Positions 1-63,675 of a stretch of DNA of 64,000 nt are shown one piece after another. The translations under genes were made by a program, and so were the position numbers. The notes below the pieces were generated by a model. The model did no database searches. It was not told the origin of the DNA and saw only the letters and a list, made by a program, of their open reading frames with translations. Within the stretch, counting starts at the first letter, position 1. Each line of letters starts with the position of its first letter. The DNA comes from Halanaerobium congolense (lineage in GTDB: Bacteria > Bacillota > Halanaerobiia > Halanaerobiales > Halanaerobiaceae): contig NZ_SOEF01000005.1 of assembly GCF_004366375.1 (NCBI RefSeq), positions 1-64,000 on the forward strand. Direction: 5' to 3'.

Positions 1-57
1 TTTTTGGATGATTTTTTGATTTATTTTTGCTCATAATATTTTTATCTTTCTACAAAG

Positions 58-48668: not shown

Positions 48669-48743
48669 GCCCCCGTAGCTCAGTGGATAGAGCAAAGGCC
48701 TCCGAAGCCTTGAGCGTAGGTTCGACTCCTACCGGGGGCACCA
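48669..48743 (+). tRNA. tRNA-Arg (anticodon CCG)
   Basis: 75 bases with encoded CCA. Acceptor arms GCCCCCG and CGGGGGC, discriminator A, anticodon arm AAGGC-CTCCGAA-GCCTT (anticodon CCG, reads CGG), T arm GTAGG-TTCGACT-CCTAC. Its 3' end faces the integrase gene 108 bases away, so it is the likely attachment site for the element that follows. Confidence 0.97.
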
Positions 48744-48753
48744 TATATCATTC

Positions 48754-48788
48754 CTGCTATAACAGCGATTATAGCAGTTTTTCTTTTT
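48754..48788 (+). terminator. Terminator after tRNA-Arg
   Basis: CTGCTATAA (48754-48762) and TTATAGCAG (48769-48777) form a 9-bp stem followed by TTTTTCTTTTT. Confidence 0.85.
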
Positions 48789-48851
48789 CAGTATCTATTC
48801 TCATTAAGCTTCCCACCGTGATTTCACCGCAGTACTTTCTATCCACCTCAA

Positions 48852-50015
48852 TCAAGCATCCAGAAATTTAGAAGCTTTTTCAGCAGCTTCAGCCTGTAAA
48901 GTCGGAATTAAATGAGAATAAGTATCCATTGTCTGAGTGATTGAGGCATGACCCAATCTCTCCTGAACAATCTTAGGATGTTCATTTAGCTGCAGCAGAA
49001 TCGAAGCATGTGTATGGCGAAGTGTATGGAGTGTTTTTTCTTTATCTAATCCAGCTTTATCTCTTAATTCAGCATATCTAACATTATATCTGTCTGGATA
49101 ATATTTTTCACCATCTTCTTTACAGAACACCAGATTATACTCATCGTGATAATTATCTCCCAGGAATTCTTTGAACTCCTTTTGTTTCTCTTTTCTTTTC
49201 TTCAGTACTTCTACTATTTCGTCAGTAATATCGATATTCCTGTTACTATTTGCCGTTTTAGTACTTTCTCTTAGAACAGAGCCATTACCCTTTTCACCTA
49301 CCAGAGCCTGTCTCACCCGAATCTTCTTATTCTCAAAGTCAACATTATCCCATTCCAGGCCTAAAAGCTCACTTTTTCTCATCCCTGTATGGACTGCAAG
49401 ATAGATAAAATCATGTAATAGCGGATCATCCTCTTTAGCAACATCTAACAGTTTACTTATTTCTTCTTTTGTTAAAGCAACAATGGTATTATTCCTTCTC
49501 CGATCAATTTTTGGTGCTTCAACAGGATCAGCCGGGTTAGCTGCAATATATCTGTTTCTGACTGCAAAGCTCAAAGCCTGCTTCAGCTTCTTATAGTGCT
49601 TTAATAGAGTTGCTTCTGATAACCCGCCTTCTTTACCGTCTTTTCTCCCGTCTTTCCGCTTCTTCTGCAAATATACTCGAATGTGAGCCGGACTCAGTTC
49701 TTTTAACTTAATATGTCCGAGGGCAGGAATCAGGTGAGTTTTAAGTATGATCTCATATCTATCATGAGTAGTCTTTTCTGTCTGAACAACCGCGTACTCC
49801 TCAAACCACTTCAGTAACAAATCCTTTACTGTCATGTCCGTCTGTACTACAACTCCCTGATCAGCCTGCAATTCCATTTTTCTAGCCCATTTTTTTGCAT
49901 CTCTCTTACGGGTAAATGTCTTATACTCTCTCATTGTCTTTCCTGTCTCTGGGTCCTTCCCAATATAAACTTGTGCTTGCCAGTTTCCTGACTTTAACTT
50001 TTTAAAGCTTCCCAT
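48852..50015 (-). CDS. int: Tyrosine-family integrase of the tRNA-Arg element
   Basis: 387 residues. An N-terminal arm-type domain (SGNWQAQVYIGKDPETGK), a SAM-like core-binding domain (about 60-170) and a catalytic domain with Arg in TGMRKSELL, HTLRHTHAS, GHAS, and Tyr in TMDTYSH. It should catalyse insertion into and excision from the tRNA-Arg gene, with the excisionase-like protein at 50957 directing excision. Standard phage/ICE int layout: int next to att, then repressor, then xis. Confidence 0.93.
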   Translation of the reverse strand: MGSFKKLKSGNWQAQVYIGKDPETGKTMREYKTFTRKRDAKKWARKMELQADQGVVVQTDMTVKDLLLKWFEEYAVVQTEKTTHDRYEIILKTHLIPALGHIKLKELSPAHIRVYLQKKRKDGRKDGKEGGLSEATLLKHYKKLKQALSFAVRNRYIAANPADPVEAPKIDRRRNNTIVALTKEEISKLLDVAKEDDPLLHDFIYLAVHTGMRKSELLGLEWDNVDFENKKIRVRQALVGEKGNGSVLRESTKTANSNRNIDITDEIVEVLKKRKEKQKEFKEFLGDNYHDEYNLVFCKEDGEKYYPDRYNVRYAELRDKAGLDKEKTLHTLRHTHASILLQLNEHPKIVQERLGHASITQTMDTYSHLIPTLQAEAAEKASKFLDA

Positions 50016-50029
50016 ATTAATTCCTCCTA

Positions 50030-50770
50030 TTATTTTATATATTGTCTTCCTACAAAAACTACTAATCCTTTAACTTCAATTTCTGTCTTATCAATTTCAC
50101 CATAGTTCTCAAAATCTGGTTCTAGCCTCACCTTATCTTTATTAATAATGTAGTATCTTTTTATTGTTCTGTTGCAATCACCACCTTTTCTGATAATCAC
50201 TAATATTGTAGAGCCATTCTCAGGCTCATCATTCATGGGTCTAATTAGAATGTAATCACCTCTGACAATTCCCCAATCCTTAAATTTATTATCTGTCATC
50301 TTTAAAGCATAAGAGGAATCTGTAACATACCCTTCTGGAAAAGTGAAATAGTCTTCTTTAACACATTCTTGCTTCTCATCCCAAAAAGCTTCATTATTAT
50401 AATTGTAACTTGTAACCATTTCTCTAGGGTTCTTCTTTTCTACCTGCTCAAGATAAGTTGAAAGTAACCCTTTTGCTCCTTGAGTGTCTTTTTTTTCCTC
50501 ATATTGCCCCTCGTCATCCTTATCCATAACTAAAAGATACTTCTCATCCAGATAACCTGCGGCTACCATTAATTCAATATAACGAACTTTATCATTATTC
50601 TCGGCTATTTTTTCTAAAATATCTGGCTTAGGATCAAACTCAAGCGACCCGTTTTTGAGTTTAGATAAATAAGATCTGTGTATGTCTGCTTCTTTAGCAA
50701 ACTTCGTGACTGATTTATCACCAATTGCTCTACTTACTAAATTCATTAATTTCACTTTATCTTTTTTCAC
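50030..50770 (-). CDS. CI-like repressor with an S24-type domain
   Basis: 246 residues. An N-terminal XRE-type HTH (SVTKFAKEADIHRSYLSKLKNGS, about 20-45), a linker, and a C-terminal LexA/CI-like domain (about 140-246) with YALKMTDNKFKDWGIVRGDYILI and TIKRYYI. Where S24 peptidases have GDSM, this reads TDNKF, so the nucleophilic Ser appears to be lost; the Lys is kept. It should repress the element's rightward promoter but may not self-cleave. Divergent from the excisionase-like gene. Confidence 0.82.
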   Translation of the reverse strand: MKKDKVKLMNLVSRAIGDKSVTKFAKEADIHRSYLSKLKNGSLEFDPKPDILEKIAENNDKVRYIELMVAAGYLDEKYLLVMDKDDEGQYEEKKDTQGAKGLLSTYLEQVEKKNPREMVTSYNYNNEAFWDEKQECVKEDYFTFPEGYVTDSSYALKMTDNKFKDWGIVRGDYILIRPMNDEPENGSTILVIIRKGGDCNRTIKRYYIINKDKVRLEPDFENYGEIDKTEIEVKGLVVFVGRQYIK

Positions 50771-50790
50771 TTTCTCTCACCTCTAAATAG

Positions 50791-50877
50791 ATTGTAACAC
50801 ATTTTCGGGATTATTACAAACACTTTTTTAATTATTTTAGGATTATACTTTACAAAAAGAAGGCTTCATGCTATAAT
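50791..50877. promoter_or_regulatory. Divergent repressor/excisionase promoter region
   Basis: Leftward promoter: TTGTAA and TACAAT on the minus strand, spacer 17 (50791-50819). Rightward promoter: TTTACA (50849-50854) and TATAAT (50872-50877), spacer 17. GGATTAT occurs at 50808-50814 and 50840-50846, 32 bp apart, as candidate repressor sites. Confidence 0.65.
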
Positions 50878-50956
50878 ATTATTGTAATAAAGCAAATAAG
50901 CAGCAATTGATTGTTGTTCAATATTTGCACACACTAATATTTTAGGAGGATTTAAG

Positions 50957-51232
50957 ATGAAAGATACTAAAACAGATCTGATAATTTATTTTAAGAATGC
51001 AGTAAAAGAACAGATCAACTTTGACTTTGAGCAGATACCTTTTTCTTTAGGTGTGAGCGACTTAAAAGAGCTTTTACCCCTATCTGATTCTAAAATTTAT
51101 ATGATGCTGGAAGCAGGAGAAATTCCTGCAAGAAAGATGGGAGGTAAATGGACAGTCTCAAGGGCAGAGTTCCTTGCCTGGTTTTACGGATCTGAAGAAA
51201 ATCTAGATTTGGAAGAACAGGTAATCGTTTAA
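50957..51232 (+). CDS. xis: Excisionase-like HTH DNA-binding protein
   Basis: 91 residues. The central part (LGVSDLKELLPLSDSKIYMMLEAGEIPARKMGGKWTVSRAEFLAWF) is the winged-helix HTH_17 fold of Xis/MerR-like excisionases. AGGAGG precedes the ATG. Directly behind the rightward promoter, it probably acts as recombination directionality factor or activator of rep. A second candidate role is as transcription factor. Confidence 0.8.
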   Translation: MKDTKTDLIIYFKNAVKEQINFDFEQIPFSLGVSDLKELLPLSDSKIYMMLEAGEIPARKMGGKWTVSRAEFLAWFYGSEENLDLEEQVIV

Positions 51233-51322
51233 TTATAATAGTAGGGGGAGAAAGAAGAGTCTCCTCTCCCCCGAAATTATCACACTCAGAATAGTGAAGT
51301 AATAATCTGAAAATCCTCCAAC

Positions 51323-51360
51323 AGATCCAGGTCTTAACGGGCCTGGGTCTTTTTTTATTT
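51323..51360 (+). terminator. Terminator after the excisionase-like gene
   Basis: Arms AGATCCAGGTC and GGCCTGGGTCT (51323-51350) followed by seven T. It separates xis from the rep transcript. Confidence 0.85.
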
Positions 51361-51505
51361 ACTAATATTTTAACTTTCATTCTAAATGAACATATGCTCT
51401 TTTAGTGAGCTTGAGTAATTTTATTATCAAAATTTGAATTTCACTGTCAAAAACGGCCTTTTAATCGGTATTATATATATAGAAGCACTTTTTAAAATGG
51501 GGGGA

Positions 51506-51543
51506 TGAAGGTAGAGGATCCCAAGCAAGGTTCTCTGCCTTCA
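51506..51543. repeat. Long hairpin upstream of rep
   Basis: Arms TGAAGGTAGAGGA and TTCTCTGCCTTCA form about 13 pairs (two G-T wobbles), then a one-base bulge and two more pairs, around a CAAGCAA loop. No T run follows on either strand, so it is not a terminator. Position upstream of an HUH initiator suggests a replication or control role. Confidence 0.6.
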
Positions 51544-51635
51544 GCCATAAAAAAAGACCTGCTGTTAAGTTCTTTTAAATAACTACTTAAGTACTTACGA
51601 AATCCTGTGATCGGATTAAGGAGGCTTCTAAAACA

Positions 51636-51809
51636 GTGAAAGTAGACGAAATCTTAAAGTTAAAGAAATCTAAACTCAGTAACATTCAAATACTTAGTTT
51701 GCTTAAAGAAGATATATTCCAGAGCAGAAAGAAACAGGAAAACAATAACGGAGGTAATAACAATGACAGTGACAGCTCAAAATCTCAGAACTACCATGAA
51801 AAAGAATGA
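51636..51809 (+). CDS. Small ORF overlapping the start of rep
   Basis: 57 residues, GTG start with AAGGAGG 11 bases upstream, ending inside rep in another frame (51763-51809 overlap). The N-terminal half is basic and helical (VDEILKLKKSKLSNIQILSLLKED); the C-terminal half is Asn/Ser-rich and partly reads through the rep ribosome binding site. It may be a copy-control or coupling peptide. Not recognised. Confidence 0.45.
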   Translation: MKVDEILKLKKSKLSNIQILSLLKEDIFQSRKKQENNNGGNNNDSDSSKSQNYHEKE

Positions 51810-53187
51810 GGATAAGGCGGAAGGCAGAAATGTAGCAACATTAAACTCTATCGAAAGGGATATTAAAGGAGTATGGTACTCGAGAAAGCTAGATCTATAC
51901 GGTAATATTCTCGATGAAATAAGTTATGAAGATGAAATATACAGGGGCGGAGAAAAGGAAAATAAATGGAAGTCTAAGACAAATGATAACAAACCATCAA
52001 GAAGTAAAAGTACCTATACTCCAACTCCAGAAGAAAGAATAGCTTCTAATATCAATCAACTGAAAAAGAAGACCTGGAAATTGACCATTGCTAATATTGA
52101 AGACATGAATACTTTTACCACAGTAACTATGGGAGATGTAGACTTCTACAACCTCTTTTCTTCAAAAAGAAGCGATAAAGATAAAAATGAACTCTACCTT
52201 GCTGATCAGTTGAGTGAAAGTGAATTGCAGCTTCTTAAAGGTAAGACCAACCTGAAGTATAAAAAGGAGAAAGATAGAAGATACTTAAATAACAGTGAGG
52301 AAGAAAATTATCTACGTAAAAAAATTATAAACATCTTAATCAAGCAGGCTTCATCTATGATTTCCAAAATAGAAGAATCTTTTGTAAAGGATGAAAAAAC
52401 ATTCAAAAGTGTCAGTGCTCGTAATCAAGCTATTAAAAGAGAACTTGCTTCAAGAATCAACTCTCTTCTGTCTGGTAAGTCTCCGTATAATATTGAAAAT
52501 GCCTACTCTGCTTTCAGTAAATTCATTGAGAATCTGAAGAATTTATCAGAAGCCTATGAAGGTGACTTCAAATACATAGCAGTGTTAGAATTCCAGGAAA
52601 ATGGTAGACCACACTTTCACATGCTGTCTAATCTAAAGTACCTGGAGCAATCTAAACTTCAGGATAAGTGGGGTCACGGAATAGCTCATATTAGCTCTCT
52701 TAATTCGATTAGTAGACCTGGCCTACACATCAGTAAAAAAGATAATTTAAAGGCAAAAGCGACTAAGTTGTCAAATTATCTCTGCGAAGAAATTAGTGAA
52801 ACTAGAAAAGATTCTAGAACTAAAAATAGAAAAATACTTTTGAGAAGTAATAACTTACTAAAACAGCCACTGGAGGTAATTACTCCTGAATTACAACGAC
52901 AGGTGGACCAATATGTGTTTAGTAATTCTGTTGGGGTAGACTGGGAAAGTGGGTTAATCGAAGGTAAGGGAGAGTATTCAAAAAGCTCCAACATAAAAAG
53001 AAGAGTTATGGAAGATTCTAATCTCTACTCAATGATAGAACAAAGAGCAGGCCAGTTACTGGATAAGATTCTAGAAATAGCAGAGAAACTTAATAGTGAC
53101 ATTATAACCAAAGATATATACTATCAGGCCAAGCATGAACTTTTCTACAATGATCAGGAATATATGCCGGCTACTGTTGCAGCATAG
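51763..53187 (+). CDS. rep: HUH-family replication initiator (Rep)
   Basis: 474 residues. The HUH motif is HFH at residues 284-286 within AVLEFQENGRPHFHMLSNL; a candidate catalytic Tyr is at 339 in KLSNYLCEEI; motif I may be KKTWKLTIANI. Such proteins nick one strand and start rolling-circle replication. GGAGG lies eight bases before the ATG. The long N-terminal part is charged and not recognised. It suggests an element that replicates after excision, such as an IME or a phage-plasmid type. Confidence 0.78.
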   Translation: MTVTAQNLRTTMKKNEDKAEGRNVATLNSIERDIKGVWYSRKLDLYGNILDEISYEDEIYRGGEKENKWKSKTNDNKPSRSKSTYTPTPEERIASNINQLKKKTWKLTIANIEDMNTFTTVTMGDVDFYNLFSSKRSDKDKNELYLADQLSESELQLLKGKTNLKYKKEKDRRYLNNSEEENYLRKKIINILIKQASSMISKIEESFVKDEKTFKSVSARNQAIKRELASRINSLLSGKSPYNIENAYSAFSKFIENLKNLSEAYEGDFKYIAVLEFQENGRPHFHMLSNLKYLEQSKLQDKWGHGIAHISSLNSISRPGLHISKKDNLKAKATKLSNYLCEEISETRKDSRTKNRKILLRSNNLLKQPLEVITPELQRQVDQYVFSNSVGVDWESGLIEGKGEYSKSSNIKRRVMEDSNLYSMIEQRAGQLLDKILEIAEKLNSDIITKDIYYQAKHELFYNDQEYMPATVAA

Positions 53188-53832: not shown

Positions 53833-54039
53833 TTAATCTCTTACTTCAACACGATCATAATATTCATAAAATGCTTCTCTATAAATGTATGATTTACTTT
53901 GACCAGATCTCTCACTTAGTTCATTAGCTTTATCATCTTGATCCTGAGTTACATAAATACTAACTTGTTTCATTTCACTAATTTTTTTCTTCTTTTTTAA
54001 GATGAAACGACAATCAGATTTCTTTTCCTTCTTCCCCAC
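53833..54039 (-). CDS. Ribbon-helix-helix protein
   Basis: 68 residues from a GTG at 54039 with AAGGAGGT upstream. After a lysine-rich N-terminus it has the RHH pattern MKQVSIYVTQDQDDKANELSERSGQSKSYIYREAF, as in CopG or antitoxin proteins. No toxin gene is adjacent. Likely a DNA-binding regulator of the element. Confidence 0.7.
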   Translation of the reverse strand: MGKKEKKSDCRFILKKKKKISEMKQVSIYVTQDQDDKANELSERSGQSKSYIYREAFYEYYDRVEVRD

Positions 54040-54090
54040 TATAATCACCTCCTTCAAGAAATTTGCCAGTAATGAAGGAATTAATGAGTT

Positions 54091-54345
54091 TTAGGCATTC
54101 TCAACATCAGAAGCTAATTCTTCTGGATCCATGTTTATCATTTCTACACCATATCTGTGCAACTCTAACAGAAATGCGGCTCGATCCATCCCAACCATTT
54201 CTGCAGCCATACCCGAAGATATTCGTTTAAGTTCAAATAGTTTGACCGCCATTGCCAATTTAGCTTCTCGTTCAAATTCTTCAGGACTTTCTTGAAGTAA
54301 ATCAGGCAAAGTGTCAGGATATTCTATCTCCATTTTTCTAGGCAT
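54091..54345 (-). CDS. UPF0175 family protein
   Basis: 84 residues. The family pattern is clear: EREAKLAMAVKLFELKRISSGMAAEMVGMDRAAFLLELHRYGV. UPF0175 proteins are often antitoxin-like partners of PIN-type toxins, but none is encoded next to it. AGGAGG precedes the ATG. The next gene downstream encodes an RHH protein 50 bases away. Confidence 0.8.
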   Translation of the reverse strand: MPRKMEIEYPDTLPDLLQESPEEFEREAKLAMAVKLFELKRISSGMAAEMVGMDRAAFLLELHRYGVEMINMDPEELASDVENA

Positions 54346-54593: not shown

Positions 54594-55139
54594 TTACAGT
54601 TCGAAGTCTTTCATTGATTCATCCATCAAATCCTGATTTACCCCTATATAATCTAGAGTAATACTCGGAGCAGAATGGTTAAAAAGTTTCTGCAGCATTG
54701 CTACATCTTTGTACTGCTGATAATGGTGGTAACCGAAGGTTTTACGGGTAGAATGGCAGCCAATGGATTCCAGACCAACTTCTTTACCTACAGAACTTAG
54801 CACTCTATATGCCTGACTTCTAGTTATCGGTTTGTTGGTCCCGTTCCTACTCTGAAAGAGGTACTCATGATCAGCCATGTTTTTAATGTATTGATCTAAA
54901 GCATCTCGCAAAACACCATTAATAAAGAACTTCTTTGACTTTTGAGTCTTCTGTTCTTTGATCTGGATATGTGTCTTATTCCTTACATCAGAAACTTTTA
55001 GTTGCAGCATGTCTCCAATTCTAAGGCCAGTATTAATTCCGAGCACAAAAAGTAGATAATTCCTGTAATTATCCATCAACAATAAGCGTTTAATCTCCTC
55101 AATCAATTCCTTGTCTCTGATCGGCTCAACTTTTTTCAT
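54594..55139 (-). CDS. Minimal tyrosine recombinase (catalytic domain only)
   Basis: 181 residues, much shorter than the integrase, with no arm-binding domain. The catalytic set is complete: Arg40 (TGLRIGD), His129-x2-Arg132 (CHSTRKTFGYH), His155 (NHSAPS), Tyr164 (TLDYIGV). The ATG overlaps the stop (TAATG) of a 49-residue ORF, so they are coupled. Proteins of this size occur in phages and restriction loci, where some invert hsdS genes. Here it lies beside repeats around the Abi_C-like gene. Confidence 0.83.
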   Translation of the reverse strand: MKKVEPIRDKELIEEIKRLLLMDNYRNYLLFVLGINTGLRIGDMLQLKVSDVRNKTHIQIKEQKTQKSKKFFINGVLRDALDQYIKNMADHEYLFQSRNGTNKPITRSQAYRVLSSVGKEVGLESIGCHSTRKTFGYHHYQQYKDVAMLQKLFNHSAPSITLDYIGVNQDLMDESMKDFEL

Positions 55140-55288
55140 TAGTTTAATCCCCTTTCTAATTTGTTTAAGATACATAAAAGCTCATTTAACACAGAATAGA
55201 CATCTATTGAAGTGAGTTCATAAGCAAAATATTGGGCCTTCACCGCCGCTAAGGTTGCTATAACAGCAATAAAGACCACAAATGTCAA
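55139..55288 (-). CDS. 49-residue membrane ORF coupled to the recombinase
   Basis: TTG start with AAGGTGAG just upstream (spacing short). A hydrophobic N-terminus (TFVVFIAVIATLAAV) is followed by YELTSIDVYSVLNELLCILNKLERGLN. Its stop overlaps the recombinase start as TAATG. One of the intergenic repeats lies directly upstream. Not recognised. Confidence 0.5.
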   Translation of the reverse strand: MTFVVFIAVIATLAAVKAQYFAYELTSIDVYSVLNELLCILNKLERGLN

Positions 55289-55294
55289 CTCACC

Positions 55295-55317
55295 TTATTA
55301 ACTATTGTGGTGAATTA
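55295..55317. repeat. Intergenic 23-bp repeat, copy 1
   Basis: Begins TTATTAACTATTGTGGTG on the plus strand. It is identical over 23 bases to 56332-56354. It sits between the Abi_C-like gene and the small membrane ORF. Confidence 0.85.
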
Positions 55318-55347
55318 AAGATTATTAGAAATTGTATCAGCTATTTA

Positions 55348-56313
55348 TCAAAAAGGTACGTCAAAATCTTCTTCATTAAATTCCTCATCAAAATCTTCAT
55401 CCCAATCATCTGAAGTTTCATCTTCAAAGTTATCTTCTTTATGTTCTTCTAAAGAATATTTCTGTAATAAAAAAAGAATGATGCTACTAGATAGATTTAG
55501 AGCTAATTCTGCATATTCAACTGAAACAGATATTCTATCATTTCCTTGACCATGTCCCCCTAACTTATTTCTTAAAAAAGGAACAGCCATTAAAACTTGA
55601 CTAGTAAATCCACCTCTATATTCCTCTGCTAAGTCTTCAATAAATCTTGAGTCTTTTAGTTTGCTCAACAGATAACTAGCATTACCTTCATCAATATCTA
55701 AAATTGTTTTTAATATACTCTCCATACTTTTACAAGAATTCAAAATAGAACTCTTATAATTATGTTCCTTAAAATCTTTTTTTGCTTGGGTATATTCATC
55801 ACAAGCCCCCTCAAATCCATTCTCTTTTAATATACTATATGTTTTTTCAGTAACATCTCTAATAAAAAAATCATAATCTATCTGATAAAATTTCCCCTCA
55901 CTTAATCTCCACGAAATTCGTTCATCTTCAAATGCTTTATTAACAGTTTTAGTCACTTCCGCTTTTTTACAGAACAAATCTATATCTGCTTGATTCATTA
56001 CATAATAATATATTTCTACTACATCTAATACCTTTGAAGGATAAGTGGTTTCTATAAATTGTTGAAGTTCTGTTTTGTTTTTTTCAACATTGGTGACCAA
56101 ACTATCTTTACCATAAACTTCTTTAATCAACTCTACCGTTTTGCTTAAAGTATTCTCATAATAATTTGCACCAGTGTCTGTATATTCTACCCATTCAGAA
56201 TCAAGTCTTTCTAAAATCATCCATATTCTTTTGTTAAGGCGTTTAGGGAAAGAAACTTTAAGTTTTTTATTATAGATTACCTCTTGATGCCTTATTGAAA
56301 AGGGGCTTATCAT
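55348..56313 (-). CDS. Abi_C-like abortive-infection-type protein
   Basis: 321 residues from the ATG at 56313 with GAGGAGG six bases upstream. An N-terminal part of STM4504/CBY_0614 type (about 1-180) is followed by an Abi_C-like domain (about 185-285) with NYKSSILNSCKSMESILKTI and FLRNKLGGHGQG (246-257). The tail (286-321) is highly acidic. Related domains occur in phage-resistance genes. Exact 23-bp repeats flank the gene on both sides. Confidence 0.65.
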   Translation of the reverse strand: MISPFSIRHQEVIYNKKLKVSFPKRLNKRIWMILERLDSEWVEYTDTGANYYENTLSKTVELIKEVYGKDSLVTNVEKNKTELQQFIETTYPSKVLDVVEIYYYVMNQADIDLFCKKAEVTKTVNKAFEDERISWRLSEGKFYQIDYDFFIRDVTEKTYSILKENGFEGACDEYTQAKKDFKEHNYKSSILNSCKSMESILKTILDIDEGNASYLLSKLKDSRFIEDLAEEYRGGFTSQVLMAVPFLRNKLGGHGQGNDRISVSVEYAELALNLSSSIILFLLQKYSLEEHKEDNFEDETSDDWDEDFDEEFNEEDFDVPF

Positions 56314-56331
56314 TATTAACCTCCTCAAGAT

Positions 56332-56354
56332 TTATTAACTATTGTGGTGAATTA
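56332..56354. repeat. Intergenic 23-bp repeat, copy 2
   Basis: Identical to 55295-55317. It lies between the small membrane protein gene and the Abi_C-like gene, just before the latter's ribosome binding site. Confidence 0.85.
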
Positions 56355-56359
56355 ATCAT

Positions 56360-56839
56360 CTAATTGTTTTTTAGTTTTAATTCTACTTCATCATTAATCT
56401 TTTTAATATTTTCTCCATTTGCCCTCCACTGCAAGAGGTAATCACCTGGCTTTGCCTCCAATTTTATTGACACAATTCGTTTTGTTTCTGGTTTGAGATT
56501 TTTAAAAGAATAATTAAAAGAATTATTATCAAAAGCTACACTTGGAGCACCGAATATATCCGATGCGTCTTGGACGGGATTAACTTTAATAAGACCAATA
56601 CCCTCTGTTTCCACAACTACTATTCCATTCTTAGCAATCAAGCTTTCTTCTCCATTACAAAAAGCAAAACTGATATCCCACCTATCTTCATCATCCAAAG
56701 AGGTAATTTCTTCAACTTTAACCCTTAAATCCTTAACTTTTCTAGGCCTGGATTTGAATGAATAATAAGCAGCAATAATTGCAGCAATTGTTCCTATTAT
56801 AGAAGAAATAGTTCCTACAACTGGTACCAAATCTTTCAT
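56360..56839 (-). CDS. Hypothetical membrane-anchored protein of the defence cargo
   Basis: 159 residues. One N-terminal membrane helix (about 4-27, VPVVGTISSIIGTIAAIIAAYYSF), a basic stretch (SRPRKVKD), then a beta-rich domain (about 35-155). No catalytic motif seen. GAGGAGG precedes the ATG. Position between a nuclease gene and an Abi_C-like gene suggests a membrane-linked part of a defence module, which is only inference. Confidence 0.6.
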   Translation of the reverse strand: MKDLVPVVGTISSIIGTIAAIIAAYYSFKSRPRKVKDLRVKVEEITSLDDEDRWDISFAFCNGEESLIAKNGIVVVETEGIGLIKVNPVQDASDIFGAPSVAFDNNSFNYSFKNLKPETKRIVSIKLEAKPGDYLLQWRANGENIKKINDEVELKLKNN

Positions 56840-56854
56840 AAAAACCTCCTCAAA

Positions 56855-56872
56855 TTATGAACTACTGCGGTT
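56855..56872. repeat. Diverged third copy of the intergenic repeat
   Basis: TTATGAACTACTGCGGT matches 14 of the first 17 positions of the repeat at 55295 and 56332. It overlaps the stop codon of the nuclease gene. Confidence 0.5.
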
Positions 56873-57860
56873 ATCCCTTTACTTTCAGTGCTTTTATTAC
56901 CTTTCTCCCCAGTGATCTAGTATTTCTTTTATTCCCTGAGTCAAAATATAGACTGACATCTAAATCTTTATCCCTTATTATCTTTCTCAATAATGGTTTT
57001 GCTACCTCATATTCCTGTTCATTTAGATTGTAGACTTTAATTGAGCTGCTCTCGTACTTTTCAATTCTATATTTTCCATCTCTTAGCTCTACAGTTACAG
57101 ACTCTTTAATATCACCCAAATCATCAGCTACTCGCTCTGGAGAAGTGAATTTAATATTCGTCTCAATAATATGTCTAATAAAGGCCTTAAGGGTGTTTCT
57201 AACATAATCTGAAATAGGATCAATCTCAAAGTTGGCTTCACTCTTAAGTAATGACTTTAATAATCCTGCAAGTGTACCTGAATCATCCGCCGCATCCCAC
57301 TTTAACCAAACCTTATCATCATTTGATTCCTGATCAATTATTAAATTATCAAACTCTTTTTTAAGTGAGTTAAAATCACCAGAAGGGGTTAGAAAAACCA
57401 TTAAAACTTTTGTTTCCTTATCTTCAGTTCTATTAATTTCTGATCTAATAGCCTTATACTCCTGTTTAAACTGATCATTTTGAGCAGAAGAAGGCTTTAT
57501 CTTGTTTTCAACAGCTATTTTTAGAATTTCTTTAGTTTCATATTCAGCTGTCACTGGATCAAACATATCATCATAAATCTGAATCTCAATATCTAAATAT
57601 CGTTTTTGTCCTTTGTAATTATATGGAGACTCAAGAGTAACTTCTACTTCAAGGCTATTTTTATTTTTCAGCAGGTCACTGTTATTTTCAAATAGTTCTT
57701 TTGCAGTAAGTTCATCTAAAAGCTTAAGGAATTCTTTTAAAAAAGTGTCTTTTAATCCATGTTCCTGATAGGGGTTAATGAGAAACGAAAGCATAGCACT
57801 CATGTTATTCTCATTTAAGCTTCCTTTACCCTGACTTAAAGCAGTAAAAATATTCATCAA
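56871..57860 (-). CDS. PD-(D/E)XK nuclease family protein
   Basis: 329 residues. The fold of PD-(D/E)XK nucleases (PF14281 type): Asp90 in RYLDIEI, Glu118-x-Lys120 in AVENKI, then SSAQNDQFKQEY. The N-terminal NIFTALSQGKGSLNENNMSAML segment is typical of defence-island members. The C-terminal part (about 215-329) is not recognised. Start TTG at 57860 or ATG at 57857. It should cut DNA; target unknown. Confidence 0.72.
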   Translation of the reverse strand: MMNIFTALSQGKGSLNENNMSAMLSFLINPYQEHGLKDTFLKEFLKLLDELTAKELFENNSDLLKNKNSLEVEVTLESPYNYKGQKRYLDIEIQIYDDMFDPVTAEYETKEILKIAVENKIKPSSAQNDQFKQEYKAIRSEINRTEDKETKVLMVFLTPSGDFNSLKKEFDNLIIDQESNDDKVWLKWDAADDSGTLAGLLKSLLKSEANFEIDPISDYVRNTLKAFIRHIIETNIKFTSPERVADDLGDIKESVTVELRDGKYRIEKYESSSIKVYNLNEQEYEVAKPLLRKIIRDKDLDVSLYFDSGNKRNTRSLGRKVIKALKVKG

Positions 57861-57879: not shown

Positions 57880-58839
57880 TTATTTGCTGATAGTAAAATA
57901 TTCATATTGTGGTTTTGCTTCACTCCAGGGAAATACATCAGCAGAAACAACAGTCTGTAAAGTCCAACGATAATCATTTCCAGCCTCCAAAATAGTATCT
58001 TTAATCTTATATTCCTGAGCATTATTAATAGTAATCCAGTCTAATCTTTCCCACTCATCATTATCTAACTTCTTTTCAATTCTAAGATAAGCTTTGTCTG
58101 TTTCTGGGATATAATCAAATTCAAAAGTAGGAGCTACTGTATCGATAACCTGATTAGCAACAGGGTAATTTAAATTCGGAAAGTCTATCTGAAAGTCTGA
58201 AAGTTTAATCTCAGCCTTAAATTCTTCTTGAGTTCCATCAGCAAATTCAACTATATAGGTATAGTATCCTGCTAAAGGTTCAGTTAGATTCCAGTATTGA
58301 TGCCATTGAGAACCAAAGTGAGGCTCCAGAGTATATTCTTTCCCATCTGGATCAATTACTTTACCAGACTTAATTTCTTTCCCAGATAAAGGATTAGCAT
58401 AAAATGCTATTTGCCAAACTCCTTTATTATGAAACTCAGAGTAATATTTAAGCACACTTGCTATTGTGTTTACAGGTATATCAACTATATTTTCTCCTGC
58501 ATCTATATTAATAGTATTCTCCCATAAAACTATTTGATCTTCATTTGATTGTGAAACAACTTTCGAACTAACATTTGAAGCTCCTTTTAGTACTCTTACT
58601 GTTGCTTTTCCACTATCTAAATCCTCAATCTTATAACTTCCATTCTCACTTGTCACTTCCTGCTTATTATCTATTTCTATAACAACATTACTTAAATTGC
58701 TGCTAACTCCATCCTTTAACACAGTTACATTTCCAGTAACAAAAGAATCTTCAGTATTAGTTAGGCCATTTCCACTATTACAAGCAGTAAGTGTTACAGC
58801 AAGTACCATAATTAAAATAATTAGTAAGTATTTCTTCAC
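57880..58839 (-). CDS. Lipoprotein with a carboxypeptidase-regulatory-like domain
   Basis: 319 residues from a GTG at 58839 with GGGGGG seven bases upstream. A lipobox VTLTAC (Cys20) means export and lipid anchoring. A CarboxypepD_reg/Cna-B-like domain (about 30-95, NVVIEIDNKQEVTSENGSYKIEDL) is followed by beta domains to the end. Unusual among nuclease and restriction genes; possibly a surface receptor blocker or passenger gene. No enzymatic motif. Confidence 0.7.
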   Translation of the reverse strand: MKKYLLIILIMVLAVTLTACNSGNGLTNTEDSFVTGNVTVLKDGVSSNLSNVVIEIDNKQEVTSENGSYKIEDLDSGKATVRVLKGASNVSSKVVSQSNEDQIVLWENTINIDAGENIVDIPVNTIASVLKYYSEFHNKGVWQIAFYANPLSGKEIKSGKVIDPDGKEYTLEPHFGSQWHQYWNLTEPLAGYYTYIVEFADGTQEEFKAEIKLSDFQIDFPNLNYPVANQVIDTVAPTFEFDYIPETDKAYLRIEKKLDNDEWERLDWITINNAQEYKIKDTILEAGNDYRWTLQTVVSADVFPWSEAKPQYEYFTISK

Positions 58840-58880
58840 AAAGCTTCCCCCCTTTATAGGTTTATCACTAACTTGTCTTT

Positions 58881-59879
58881 TTATTTTGGATAGCAGCAAG
58901 CTCTAACTCTTATTTCTGCATCTCCATAAGGCTTCTCTTTTTTCATTCTTCTTTTTATTGCCCTTCTCCGTTGACGTGATAATTTATATATTGGGCTGTC
59001 AACCATGCTGTAACCATTTTCACTTAAATTGTTGATTAAATCTTCCTTATTTATTTCATTTTTGTCACAATATATAGATACTGCTTCTTTGCTAACTATT
59101 TTTGAGTTCTTTACATTTTCAGCAATCTCACTCACATCATCTTCGGGAGGTATAAGTTTATTAAAATCATCATGACAGAATAACCTGTTAATCATTTTAT
59201 TGTATTTTGGTTTTTGCTTGAATAATACTTTATTAGACATATTAGAAAAATCTTCATTGTGATCTAGTTTTATCCCAAAGGCACATTGAACACCAGGCCG
59301 TTTAAACGGCTGTAATCCAATTAGCTTCATATTATTTAGATCATTAGCTATAAGTTCTTGGTCCATATAACTTCTAATGCAACCTACTCCTTCAGTCCTT
59401 GGAGTAAATCTACTTTCCTCACTGTTATAAACATGTGTTGCAAAAAATGCTGCAACAGCAATATCAGAGCTTAGATCCAACAAATCGGTCTTAAGTTCAT
59501 AATGTTGAGCTAATGCATCATAATGAATATCCATACCGTCATTCTCTGCAAATATAACTTTGGGATGAGTCTTTAATATTAAGGAGAAGTCAATAATTTT
59601 GAGCCGATTTATCATTACATCTTTTCTAGTAGGATTACCTCTGAAAATACTGGGTTTACAGGGATATCTTGAATCATAATTATCATTCTCTCCCCTATAA
59701 AAAGTAAAAAACATGTTTTTAGGTAAAGCAGACATTTTACCGTTTGGCATTTGCATGAGATTAAAAGACAGCTTTCTTCTAATATAACCAAGACGTTTTG
59801 ATTTCAAATTTAGTAAAGGACTATTTGATTCAAAATGACGTATAGCTTCAAATATATCACTATATATTTTGGGACTCAT
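58881..59879 (-). CDS. FRG-domain protein
   Basis: 332 residues. The FRG domain is clear: FYRGE (60-64), KPSIFRGN, and ALAQHYELKTDLLDLSSDIAVAAFF (122-147). FRG proteins are frequent in phage-defence islands; some resemble NAD-using ART-like effectors. The C-terminus is basic (LSRQRRRAIKRRMKKEK). GAGGAG precedes the ATG. It lies 20 bases from the metallopeptidase gene. Confidence 0.83.
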   Translation of the reverse strand: MSPKIYSDIFEAIRHFESNSPLLNLKSKRLGYIRRKLSFNLMQMPNGKMSALPKNMFFTFYRGENDNYDSRYPCKPSIFRGNPTRKDVMINRLKIIDFSLILKTHPKVIFAENDGMDIHYDALAQHYELKTDLLDLSSDIAVAAFFATHVYNSEESRFTPRTEGVGCIRSYMDQELIANDLNNMKLIGLQPFKRPGVQCAFGIKLDHNEDFSNMSNKVLFKQKPKYNKMINRLFCHDDFNKLIPPEDDVSEIAENVKNSKIVSKEAVSIYCDKNEINKEDLINNLSENGYSMVDSPIYKLSRQRRRAIKRRMKKEKPYGDAEIRVRACCYPK

Positions 59880-59898: not shown

Positions 59899-60627
59899 TT
59901 AAAAGTCTAATCGCTTACCATTCACTTTAAGCCACTCTTTTTTCTCTTTAATGTTAGGTATAACAGAAGCTACTGTTGCCCAGAAATCTCTAGAATGATT
60001 GTCATGTATTAGGTGGGTAAGCTCATGTACCACCAAATAATCCACAATAGACATTGGTGCCATGATGATCTTCCAGTTAAAGTTAAGGTTGTTTTTACTG
60101 CTGCAGCTGCCCCAGCGCTTCTTCTGTTTTTTCACAACCACATTGTTTGGTTCAACATCAAGCTTAACCTTATACTTATCCACTCGCTCATTAATCTTTT
60201 CTTTAGCATGTTCACGATACCATTCAATTAAACGGGTCCGAATCTCTTCTCGTCGCTTTTCTTTCTTATCTGCAAGCTCCACTGGATAGTCAATAATGAA
60301 TTTCCCCTGGTAGAGCTTTACTTCCACTTTTGAAATTTCTGCCGGATTAACCTCCAACCTATATCTTCGATCTAAATAAGGAAGTTTCTCTCCAGTCATG
60401 AATTCTTTTTCTTTTGGTGCAGGCTTAATCTTATCCATTTCCCTTAATTTGGAAAGAATCCAGTTAGTTTTTTTCTTTAGTACATCTTCTATTTTAGTTT
60501 CTGCTGTATTTTTTGGAGATCTAACTATTAAATTCCTCTCATGATCAACAATGATCCCCATAGTTTTACGTCTAGTGCGTATTATTTCATAATTTATTAG
60601 TTTATTTCCCAGTTTGATCTGCTGCAT
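59899..60627 (-). CDS. YgjP-type M48-like metallopeptidase
   Basis: 242 residues, DUF45/YgjP family. KRWGSC (170-175) and the zinc site HELTHLIHDNH (His201, His205, His211) are intact. The gene starts 13 bases after hsdR and shares its transcript. YgjP-like genes are common companions of type I restriction loci. Substrate unknown. Confidence 0.87.
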   Translation of the reverse strand: MQQIKLGNKLINYEIIRTRRKTMGIIVDHERNLIVRSPKNTAETKIEDVLKKKTNWILSKLREMDKIKPAPKEKEFMTGEKLPYLDRRYRLEVNPAEISKVEVKLYQGKFIIDYPVELADKKEKRREEIRTRLIEWYREHAKEKINERVDKYKVKLDVEPNNVVVKKQKKRWGSCSSKNNLNFNWKIIMAPMSIVDYLVVHELTHLIHDNHSRDFWATVASVIPNIKEKKEWLKVNGKRLDF

Positions 60628-60639
60628 TCTTACCTCCGA

Positions 60640-63600
60640 TTAAAACATAAATATATTCTGAGAGAGCTTAATTATCTTGTTAGTTAAACTCTCATATTTC
60701 TGCTTGAACTCGTCATATTTGATCAGATGAACCTTGGTTGTTTTTCGCATCTTCTGAAGAACTTCAGTCTTCTGACGCCAGAGATCAATTTTAGTGTACT
60801 CACTTAAGTCATTAAAGATATTCTGAGTAACTTCCTTCACTGTCTTATTTACATAAGGCTCATCACTACCTTCTCCTGCAGTATATTCACCAGGCTCTTC
60901 TGCAACTTTGCCCTTTTCTTCTTTATCTCTCTCATTTAAAAGAAGTTCATAAAGGGCAAACTCTTTCTTGTTTAACCCCAGTTTTTCTGCTTTCGACTGG
61001 ACTGTTCTCATATCATTAATAATATCCTTCATCTCACCAATCTGTTCTAAAAGACTCATCTGATTATTTTTTCTCTTTTCGATGATCTCTTCCAGTCGCT
61101 CACTTAGTTTTTTATAATAGACAGGGTTTTCTTCCATCTGTACATTAATTTCTTTCTTTATCGCATGCTCCATCTCACTGGCTTTAGCTTTATCAGATTT
61201 TAAGTCATCTAGAGTTTCTTCAAACTTTTTCTCATCAAGTATAGATACTGGCTCATGCAAGACTCTGACACTGCTTGCTCTGATATGATCATCTATCAGT
61301 TTTTTAACCTTTTCTCCCATACCCTTAATATCAATACTATCATCACGATATCTATTTCTCACTGCTGTATAAATTTTACTCAACTTGTATAAATCCTTAC
61401 GGTAAGGATCAGCTATCGGGTGAGGCATGATGATATCCATACTCTTAGCAAAGTCCTTAAAGTCATTTTTGAAGTCATTTCTCTTCTCTTCGTCTTCAAA
61501 GATCTCAATACAGGCTTCCAGGTCATCCATATCTGTATTTCTAAAATATTTCATTACCTCTCTGTGATTGGCTTCCAGTCTTGGCTTCTCATCTTCAATT
61601 GGAGTTACAGCATTTTCCACATCAGAAGGATTAAAGATAGCCAGTGCCTTTTTAAGGTTATCAAAGACTCCATAATAATCTACTACCAGACCATAATTCT
61701 TCTCAGGATAAACTCTGTTAACTCGGGCAATAGCCTGCAGCAAGTTATGTTCTTTCAGAGACTTATCCAAATACATAACCTGCTCAACTGGAGCATCAAA
61801 ACCAGTCAAGAGCATATCACAAACGATGATTATTTTAAGTGAAGAGTGAGGATTCTTAAACCTCTCAACTATTCTAGATTTCTGATCATTATCAACACTG
61901 TATTTTTTAAGCAAGCCCTCATCATTGTGCCCGCCAGAGATTAATACAGCTGTTTCTGGACCGTCTAACTCATCAATCGCCTCTTTATACCTAACTGCTG
62001 CCTGTCTGCTTACGGCCACTATTTGAGCCTTAAAAGGGGCAATCTTTTCCGTATAATGTTTAATAATATCCAGGGCAATAGTTTTAATCCTGGAACTTGC
62101 TTCAGCTATATCATTTTCAGTAGCATATTTTTCTTTTATCTTCTGTTTTTCTTCATCTGAATATCTGTGGAAGGTTTGATCAAAGACTTCATCTAAAGTT
62201 CTATCCTCCACATGTAACTCAGCCAGTCTGCTCTCATATTTAATTGGCAGGGTAGCATTATCGGCAACTGATTCTTCTATCGTGTAAGTATCAATATAGT
62301 CACCGAAGGTTCTTAAGGTGCTTCTTGATTCTTTATCAATTGGTGTTCCTGTAAAACCTATGTAAGCTGCATTTGGTAGAGCTCTCCTCATATTAGAGGC
62401 TAAATCTTTAAACTGAGTTCTGTGAGCCTCATCAGCCATTACAAATACATTCTCTCTTTCGGTTAAAACAGGATATTTTTCATCTTCATATTCCTGAAAC
62501 TTATGGATAGTAGTCATAATAGTTCTGCCTGCTTCTGAGGACAAAAGCTCTTTTAAGTCTTTTACACTACCTGCTCTTTCTGGATTAGGAAAACCACATT
62601 TTTTGAAAGTACCACTGATCTGTTCATCAAGGTCAACTCTATCTGTTACAATTAGCATTGTAGGATTGCCAATATCCTTCATCCTTCTCAGTTTAAGGGC
62701 TAAAAAGAGCATGGTTAAAGATTTGCCTGAGCCCTGAGTATGCCAGACAGTTCCGTTTCTGTCTTCTAAACTCTTAGCATTCTTTATTCTTTCTACTGCT
62801 TTCTGCACAGCTCTGTACTGCTGATAGCGGCAGGCCATTTTAACTTTAGCATTACCCTTATCTTCAAAAACAGTAAAGTTCCTGATAATATCTAAAAATC
62901 TGTTCTTTTTAAAAAGTGAGAAAAGAAGTATATCCTGTCCTGTAGGCACTTTTCCCAGTAGTTCTGCCAAAGAGTCTTTAGTATAAGGATAAGGATCTTT
63001 CCAGCCTTTAAATGCCTGTGCTGGAGCACCTACTGTAGCAGAGGTAGCTGAGTCACCCCAGGCTGCAACAAGCAGTTGATTGGGGTAAAATAATTCTTCT
63101 GCTCCTTCTTCAGTATCATCACTTCTTATGTTTTGATATCTTCTCAGCTGATTTATTGCCTCTTCTTCTGGTTCATTACAGGTAGTATTATTTTTGCATT
63201 CTATTACAGCCAGAGGTAAACCATTAACAAACAGAGTTATGTCAGGTTTAATTGGATCTTTTCCTTTGACTCGAAATTGGTTGATTGCTATAAAAGAATT
63301 ATTATCAAGATTCTCATAATCTATGTACTTTACAGTCTGGTTTTTCTTGCCATGACCTATATCCTGCTGTAAACTTATGTGATTAATCAGTTTATCATAG
63401 ATCATCTCATTGGCTGCCATCAAGGAATTAGCTTTTAGACGGGCTGGTCTGATCTCATTAACTGCCTTATTCAAGTTGTTCTCATTGATCCAGGGATTGA
63501 TTCTTTTAAGAGCACTCTTAAGCTCCTCAATTAAAATCACCTGGTGTTCTGATTCTCTTGCCGGCAGCTCTACAAAATCCTTATCCAGCTGATCATAGAC

Positions 63601-63675
63601 TTTATAGCCCAAAGTTTTAAATAAATCTAAAGCAGGTTTTTCTGATTGCTGATATTCATCCCAATTTCCAGTCAT
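60640..63675 (-). CDS. hsdR: Type I restriction enzyme R subunit
   Basis: 1011 residues, full length. N-terminal nuclease with AVIECKN (156-162), then SF2 helicase motifs: Walker A TQGSGKS (313-319), DEAHR (415-419), GFTGTP (440-445), and a C-terminal helical part. It translocates and cuts unmodified DNA together with HsdM and HsdS. Its ribosome binding site (GGAGG) lies inside the 3' end of hsdS, so the two are coupled. hsdM must lie outside the window. Confidence 0.95.
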   Translation of the reverse strand: MTGNWDEYQQSEKPALDLFKTLGYKVYDQLDKDFVELPARESEHQVILIEELKSALKRINPWINENNLNKAVNEIRPARLKANSLMAANEMIYDKLINHISLQQDIGHGKKNQTVKYIDYENLDNNSFIAINQFRVKGKDPIKPDITLFVNGLPLAVIECKNNTTCNEPEEEAINQLRRYQNIRSDDTEEGAEELFYPNQLLVAAWGDSATSATVGAPAQAFKGWKDPYPYTKDSLAELLGKVPTGQDILLFSLFKKNRFLDIIRNFTVFEDKGNAKVKMACRYQQYRAVQKAVERIKNAKSLEDRNGTVWHTQGSGKSLTMLFLALKLRRMKDIGNPTMLIVTDRVDLDEQISGTFKKCGFPNPERAGSVKDLKELLSSEAGRTIMTTIHKFQEYEDEKYPVLTERENVFVMADEAHRTQFKDLASNMRRALPNAAYIGFTGTPIDKESRSTLRTFGDYIDTYTIEESVADNATLPIKYESRLAELHVEDRTLDEVFDQTFHRYSDEEKQKIKEKYATENDIAEASSRIKTIALDIIKHYTEKIAPFKAQIVAVSRQAAVRYKEAIDELDGPETAVLISGGHNDEGLLKKYSVDNDQKSRIVERFKNPHSSLKIIIVCDMLLTGFDAPVEQVMYLDKSLKEHNLLQAIARVNRVYPEKNYGLVVDYYGVFDNLKKALAIFNPSDVENAVTPIEDEKPRLEANHREVMKYFRNTDMDDLEACIEIFEDEEKRNDFKNDFKDFAKSMDIIMPHPIADPYRKDLYKLSKIYTAVRNRYRDDSIDIKGMGEKVKKLIDDHIRASSVRVLHEPVSILDEKKFEETLDDLKSDKAKASEMEHAIKKEINVQMEENPVYYKKLSERLEEIIEKRKNNQMSLLEQIGEMKDIINDMRTVQSKAEKLGLNKKEFALYELLLNERDKEEKGKVAEEPGEYTAGEGSDEPYVNKTVKEVTQNIFNDLSEYTKIDLWRQKTEVLQKMRKTTKVHLIKYDEFKQKYESLTNKIIKLSQNIFMF

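Follow-up and report, generated by a model that had tools for sequence, protein, structure and literature searches.

How do defence genes enter and leave a defence island? This traffic is mostly unexplained, and the best-known examples of site-specific capture are integrons and Xer modules. The question is raised here by a 64,000-nucleotide stretch of Halanaerobium congolense DNA (hereafter the window), whose minus strand carries, in order, a PD-(D/E)XK gene, a 159-aa gene, a repeat (copy B), an Abi_C-like gene, the same repeat again (copy A), a 155-bp leader and a tyrosine recombinase gene (Table 1). A sequence-only reading of this stretch had offered two explanations: cassette exchange of defence genes, or a conserved leader at each gene. 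From comparison with related genomes, we consider it probable that the recombinase's own 32-bp crossover site acts as a docking point for circular DNA that carries mostly defence genes.

Table 1. Features of the locus, with positions in the window
Feature	Position	Strand	Remarks
Ribbon-helix-helix gene	53833..54057	-	constant right flank
UPF0175 antitoxin-like gene	54091..54345	-	constant right flank
Catalytic-domain-only tyrosine recombinase, 181 aa, start MKKVEP	54594..55139	-	Phage_integrase domain
Conserved leader, site to recombinase	55140..55285	-	low variation, 22/134 columns
Intact 32-bp site beside recombinase	55286..55317	-	0/22 columns (offsets -5..16) variable, 7 genomes
Repeat copy A, 24 bp	55295..55318	-	covers left arm and centre of the 32-bp site
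Inserted cassette, 1037 bp	55319..56355	-	one repeat copy, RBS and gene; missing in G017
Cassette gene, AbiJ-NTD4/HEPN (Abi_C-like), 321 aa	55348..56313	-	profile matches; 29% GC
Repeat copy B, 24 bp	56332..56355	-	left arm and centre, then cassette sequence ATCTTGAGG in place of the right arm
Older cargo: 159-aa protein, one N-terminal hydrophobic segment	56360..56839	-	left neighbour of site in G011, G017
'Diverged copy' of the sequence-only reading	56855..56871	-	unsupported as site
Older cargo: PD-(D/E)XK nuclease family gene	56871..57857	-	PDDEXK_4; PADLOC PDC-S26
Older cargo: lipoprotein-like gene	57880..58899	-	weak carboxypeptidase-regulatory-like matches only
Older cargo: FRG-domain gene	58881..59879	-	PADLOC PDC-S15
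ygjP-like metallopeptidase gene (presumed)	59899..60627	-	left edge of variable cargo in four genomes; half-site cuts ygjP in G022
hsdR, type I restriction subunit gene	60640..63675	-	hsd block missing in G018

A 24-bp repeat within a 32-bp site

The repeat, TTAATTCACCACAATAGTTAATAA, is 24 bp long; its two copies are identical, both lie on the minus strand with a spacing of 1037 bp, and they flank the Abi_C-like gene. The sequence-only reading had the flanking arrangement and the identity right, but gave the length as 23 bp. Copies A and B are the sole matches with up to three mismatches in the window (0 expected, from 100 shuffles), and the repeat is present exactly these two times in the whole 2.83-Mb genome (G000). 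It is real, but covers mainly two parts, the left arm and the centre, of a longer site (32 bp) that goes with the recombinase. In the window this site consists of left arm TAATTCACC, 14-bp centre ACAATAGTTAATAA and right arm GGTGAGTTG; the left arm is CAATTCACC, with C at -6, in five of the seven genomes that possess it, such that the site there reads CAATTCACC-ACAATAGTTAATAA-GGTGAGTTG. The 9-bp arms are complementary at 8 of 9 positions when C is at -6, and at 7 of 9 in the window; the best inverted-repeat score is only modestly rare, being reached in 2% of shuffles. In size the site is close to the known core sites of tyrosine recombinases (28 bp for dif, 34 bp for loxP). A second inverted repeat, ACCACAATAGTTAA...TTGACATTTGTGGT, is nested with the 32-bp site and overlaps it, and the two compete as the core at which crossover would occur. 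Copy B has the left arm and centre, but its right arm is degenerate, which would fit an origin of that half in the cassette.

A diverged third copy had also been claimed, at the previous junction of the array. This claim did not hold up: 7 of 22 positions differ, the same junction lacks the element in two relatives (G011 and G017), and equally loose matches are abundant genome-wide (48, vs 36 in a reversed control). The sequence may be a relic site, of which its position at a junction is mildly suggestive (chance ~0.001, by our own estimate).

The leader contains a 49-codon reading frame (55139-55288) that we considered as a real gene; a stop codon breaks it in G017, and it is thus not a conserved protein. 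An extra inverted half-site, ATTTGTGGT, lies in the leader at 55275-55283, and some distant relatives have further half-sites between site and gene; these are possibly accessory binding sites. In a promoter and terminator scan, promoters were not in excess.

A catalytic-only recombinase and its neighbouring cassette

The sequence-only reading had placed a minimal, catalytic-only tyrosine recombinase beside the repeats, and this is borne out: Phage_integrase (PF00589) matches with 87.5 bits (cut-off 27.1) and spans residues 14-168 of 181. Arg40, Lys64, His129, Arg132, His155 and Tyr164 are invariant in 12 relatives of the protein. An N-terminal core-binding domain is usual in simple recombinases (PMC8138268); here it is lacking, the catalytic domain beginning at residue 14 of 181, and the enzyme could require a partner protein. 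Its match to the integron integrase profile TIGR02249 is 35.3 bits against a cut-off of 265, and it does not class as an IntI.

The cassette protein comprises AbiJ_NTD4, DUF7014 and Abi_C-like domains. PF18863 (43.1 bits) and PF22809 (35.7 bits) both exceed their cut-offs; PF14355 (Abi_C) scores 21.1 bits, just under its cut-off of 24, and NCBIfam STM4504/CBY_0614 scores 88.7 bits, below its cut-off of 150. An RNKLGGH motif of the HEPN Rx(4-6)H type is retained. With an AbiJ N-terminal domain and an Abi_C/HEPN C-terminal domain, the protein is predicted to be a member of the AbiJ / Abi_C abortive infection group. No homologue of the gene was found in the 37 other Halanaerobiales genomes, and a plasmid search returned distant homologues only, the best-covering match having 30% identity. 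The GC content of the gene is 29.2%, vs 37.4% for the recombinase, and it looks foreign. Since the order offers no homologue and the GC content lies below that of the recombinase, gain of the cassette in the window seems more likely than its loss in the relative that lacks it (G017; see below).

Seven loci with a constant module and changing cargo

Our comparison set comprised 38 genomes of the order Halanaerobiales, G000 included; the close relatives are Halanaerobium (H. kushneri, H. saccharolyticum, H. salsuginis and others). Site and recombinase are both present in 7 of the 38, and the other 31 have neither the site nor this clade of recombinase (chance ~8e-8). Among the seven, the recombinase is 97-100% identical. 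Each of the six relatives has a single full site, followed in every case by the same leader and, at a distance of 171 bp, by the same recombinase of 181 aa. The exact 22-bp site had no match in viral contigs.

When the seven loci are aligned on the site, all 33 columns from -40 to -8 are variable, as against 0 of 22 in the site and 22 of 134 in the leader. The left junction is constant to within a base or two, and yet there are six different left neighbours: the AbiJ-NTD4/HEPN gene in the window, the 159-aa gene in G011 and G017, a short reading frame beyond HepT/MNT in G016, an HSDR_N-N6_Mtase protein in G018 (from which the whole hsd-ygjP block is absent), AbiTii in G022, and a gene without assignment in G019. 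The right flank (recombinase, UPF0175, ribbon-helix-helix and Rep genes) is common to six loci over 4.4-4.9 kb, and aligns over 2.8 kb in G019, where the contig is short; G016 is 99.96% identical to the window over the 2.3 kb right of the site and has no cargo in common with it. Blocks further left are also common among loci. Given this constant right flank and the shared blocks further left, the cargo turns over and the module stays. Most of the cargo consists of defence-type genes.

The repeat abuts different genes in related genomes and gene order is not fixed, so that the pattern which would have refuted cassette exchange is not seen. The idea of a conserved leader at each gene is rejected, because the element is missing from all other junctions of the array and from every genome without this recombinase.

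To the left of the older cargo, the junctions in the array contain no sites. The locus has a single hsdS-type gene, of 426 aa; the gene next to hsdR at 59899..60627 is presumed to encode a ygjP-like metallopeptidase. On the other side of the module, 48669-53187 contains a tRNA-Arg followed by a 387-aa integrase (48852-50015), a LexA-like repressor gene, a likely excisionase and a G2P-like Rep gene: this is an integrative element. No copy of the tRNA-Arg 3' end that would mark its far end was found on the contig between 48 and 87 kb.

An empty site and a half-site

G017 has 7.5 kb of the window's left side in common, through the 159-aa gene and the site, and the Abi_C-like gene is missing. Once the 1037-bp cassette is removed from the window, the two sequences align over 1017 bp with no gaps and 94.3% identity; the single site in G017 is a clean empty site. 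Cassette exchange, as the sequence-only reading had proposed, is supported by this precise empty site and by the different genes that the repeat abuts across genomes.

Further support comes from G022, where other genes lie between a partial copy of the site and the full one. The partial copy, TCAATTCACCACAAT, is a left half-site of 15 bases that runs directly into the middle of ygjP at a distance of 4.1 kb to the left of the full site; ygjP has lost its 5' part and is preceded not by hsdR but, further out, by a kinase-like gene. The break is at the edge of the site's centre, which would put the exchange at or just after ACAA|T, and recombination with a secondary target would produce a junction of this kind. 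The interval contains the ygjP remnant, a 205-aa gene, a DUF4145 gene, a Schlafen/AlbA gene and AbiTii. A third near-match, on contig 8 of G022, lies within a TRAP transporter gene and is put down to chance.

An alternative is homologous recombination in the conserved flanks, which would swap cargo with the recombinase as a passenger and the site as simply the place where the module begins. Both flanks are long and conserved, favouring exchange, and a single full duplication of the site was seen. Homologous recombination, however, moves existing junctions: six unrelated neighbours that end at one place are left unexplained, and so is a one-gene insertion with 24-bp direct repeats and a matching empty site. 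As an account of the locus we regard it as unlikely; homologous exchange may well spread junctions once formed.

Sites of the same shape in more distant relatives

G000 encodes two more recombinases of this kind, and relatives encode others. The further catalytic-only recombinases of G000 are at C37:3559-4101 (L071), ending a type I RM-like operon with dGTPase-type and DnaG-like genes, and at C49:10161-10703 (L077), whose relatives are in a mostly fixed context near two-component genes. Clade 2 comprises five loci (78-80% identity) with five unrelated upstream gene sets, which include type I RM genes (in G000 and in G011) and one gene resembling TmtA; at -178/-180 each of these loci has a site like CAATACAAC-N14-GTCGCATTG, whose left edge is of the kind already described. 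A paralogue at 74% identity, further removed, comes immediately after Wadjet-like genes. On the chromosomes of distant Firmicutes relatives, a site near AAATGTAAC-ACAATANATATTNA-GTTACATTT lies 123-432 bp upstream of the gene, and two plasmids and one phage likewise have similar 9-14-9 sites ahead of it. In a consensus-free pairwise comparison of upstream regions, the best four pairs (27/32) all fall at the site, and controls with downstream or shuffled sequence reached at most 25. About half of the distant relatives examined have no such site. The recombinase family occurs in 851 plasmid records at E<=1e-20, and also in phages and satellites; on plasmids and phages its commoner role is probably multimer resolution.

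Several other arrangements were seen among these relatives. A perfect palindrome with 9-bp arms, CAATACAAC-N14-GTTGTATTG (L139:1213-1244), lies 4.76 kb upstream of a related recombinase; three genes are between them, one DNA methyltransferase-like, and the contig has no second copy. In G013, a truncated recombinase (residues 63-181; L073:9555-9911) is found ~2.6 kb upstream of a complete copy, in what looks like a stack of modules. Clade 4/5 recombinases (L084-L088, L090) of several Halanaerobiales genomes are near surface-polysaccharide-biosynthesis-like genes, which are also hypervariable. A 4.3-kb 'insertion' in clade 3 was considered as a cassette and set aside: its breakpoints are inside a response-regulator gene and repeats are absent, for which reason it looks like a deletion in that gene. 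A 1.7-kb insertion at -244 in clade 4 has no repeats at its breaks.

These pairings bear on whether a different recombinase uses the site, namely the host Xer proteins or the 387-aa integrase of the element. There is a precedent in Acinetobacter, where Xer sites bound mobile dif modules (PMC6449649), and the element does encode that second integrase; but the site occurs only with the catalytic-only recombinase, a pairing that persists on plasmids and a phage, and we give such an arrangement little credence. Least likely is that the palindrome is an operator and the recombinase-like protein mainly a repressor, with the second copy regulating the Abi_C-like gene: the AbiJ-NTD4/HEPN gene and the recombinase leader do each have a copy upstream, and MrpR of phage SPbeta is a repressor with a recombinase fold that binds a repeated element, but MrpR has lost key catalytic residues (PMC10516654), whereas all are kept here and invariant in 12 relatives, and an operator leaves the exact cargo boundary in seven genomes unexplained. 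Autoregulation could operate alongside recombination.

A proposed route for gene capture

We propose the following route for capture at the 32-bp site. The 24-bp repeat would be most of a site for the recombinase encoded 171 bp downstream, and would serve as a docking point within the Halanaerobium integrative element. A circle or plasmid that has a compatible site would recombine there, such that new cargo lands between the old cargo and the recombinase. The docking site would be rebuilt after each insertion, because the chromosomal right half stays with the recombinase. The excised form of the present cassette would be a 1037-bp circle with the junction ...TTAATTCACCACAATAGTTAATAAATCTTGAGG....

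A full second copy of the site was found in just one of the seven loci (the window), and duplicated sites were found in none of the other recombinase clades; integron-like arrays are thus not built. That most loci have one full site would mean either that left copies from earlier insertions decay or are deleted, or that homologous exchange of formed loci spreads the cargo. We infer, from these patterns in sequence, that this recombinase does the exchange, that its substrate is circular, and that leftover copies decay or are deleted. A site for multimer resolution on plasmids or phages may here have been turned into a site for gene acquisition.

Relation to known systems

In the way it would work, the locus resembles the attI site of integrons, dif modules and the tvr locus of pneumococci, a likeness of function rather than demonstrated membership. 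As in integrons, a tyrosine recombinase has an adjacent docking site, the newest gene is next to the recombinase, the cargo is of defence type, and the genes are compact, with the stop codon near the site. On the other hand, arrays of attC-type hairpins are absent and the site is a dif-like palindrome, the genes read towards the recombinase and not away from it, and each locus has one or two sites, with none at other junctions.

The likeness to dif/pdif modules (XerC/XerD, Acinetobacter plasmids) is that a short palindromic core site bounds exchangeable accessory genes, with Xer-like chemistry. The differences are that the site here has its own small recombinase beside it, a distinct sequence and a 9-14-9 layout, and that it is in direct orientation and usually single. 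A dif/pdif module would have XerC/XerD-type sites on both sides; in the window two copies flank one gene, one of them with a poor right arm. The tvr locus of Streptococcus pneumoniae (TvrR, SpnIV type I RM) has direct repeats and circular intermediates (PMC6265443). In common with our locus it has, besides the direct repeats, a tyrosine recombinase that is encoded within type I restriction genes and next to genes of toxin-antitoxin type; tvr, however, shuffles pieces of hsdS, whereas here whole unrelated genes vary between strains, there is a single hsdS-type gene in place of several shuffled segments, and the repeats flank the HEPN gene.

Plasmids pRC12/pRC18 encode a 195-aa INT_C_like_3 integrase beside a toxin-antitoxin operon (PMC7117683). 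Such small integrases of Firmicutes plasmids and phages are of the same size class as our recombinase, which has homologues on many plasmids and phages and resembles the pRC12 protein in size and in its toxin-antitoxin surroundings. Their role is presumed to be plasmid multimer resolution, whereas here a variable defence region is bounded. An arrangement like the present one was not described in the papers that we searched, a partial open-access collection.

More broadly, and tentatively, we raise the possibility of a form of gene capture for phage-defence genes that is separate from integrons: a catalytic-only, plasmid-type recombinase would use its upstream resolution site in the manner of attI, and the same pair, distributed across chromosomes, plasmids and phages of Firmicutes, would be a latent platform for capture. 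If the recombinase does perform capture, then both the enzyme and its 32-bp site are defined, and the site occurs naturally in an empty and an occupied form, so that the question of how defence genes come and go is directly testable. The pairing of site and recombinase also suggests a function for the very common and little-studied small integrases of Firmicutes plasmids and phages.
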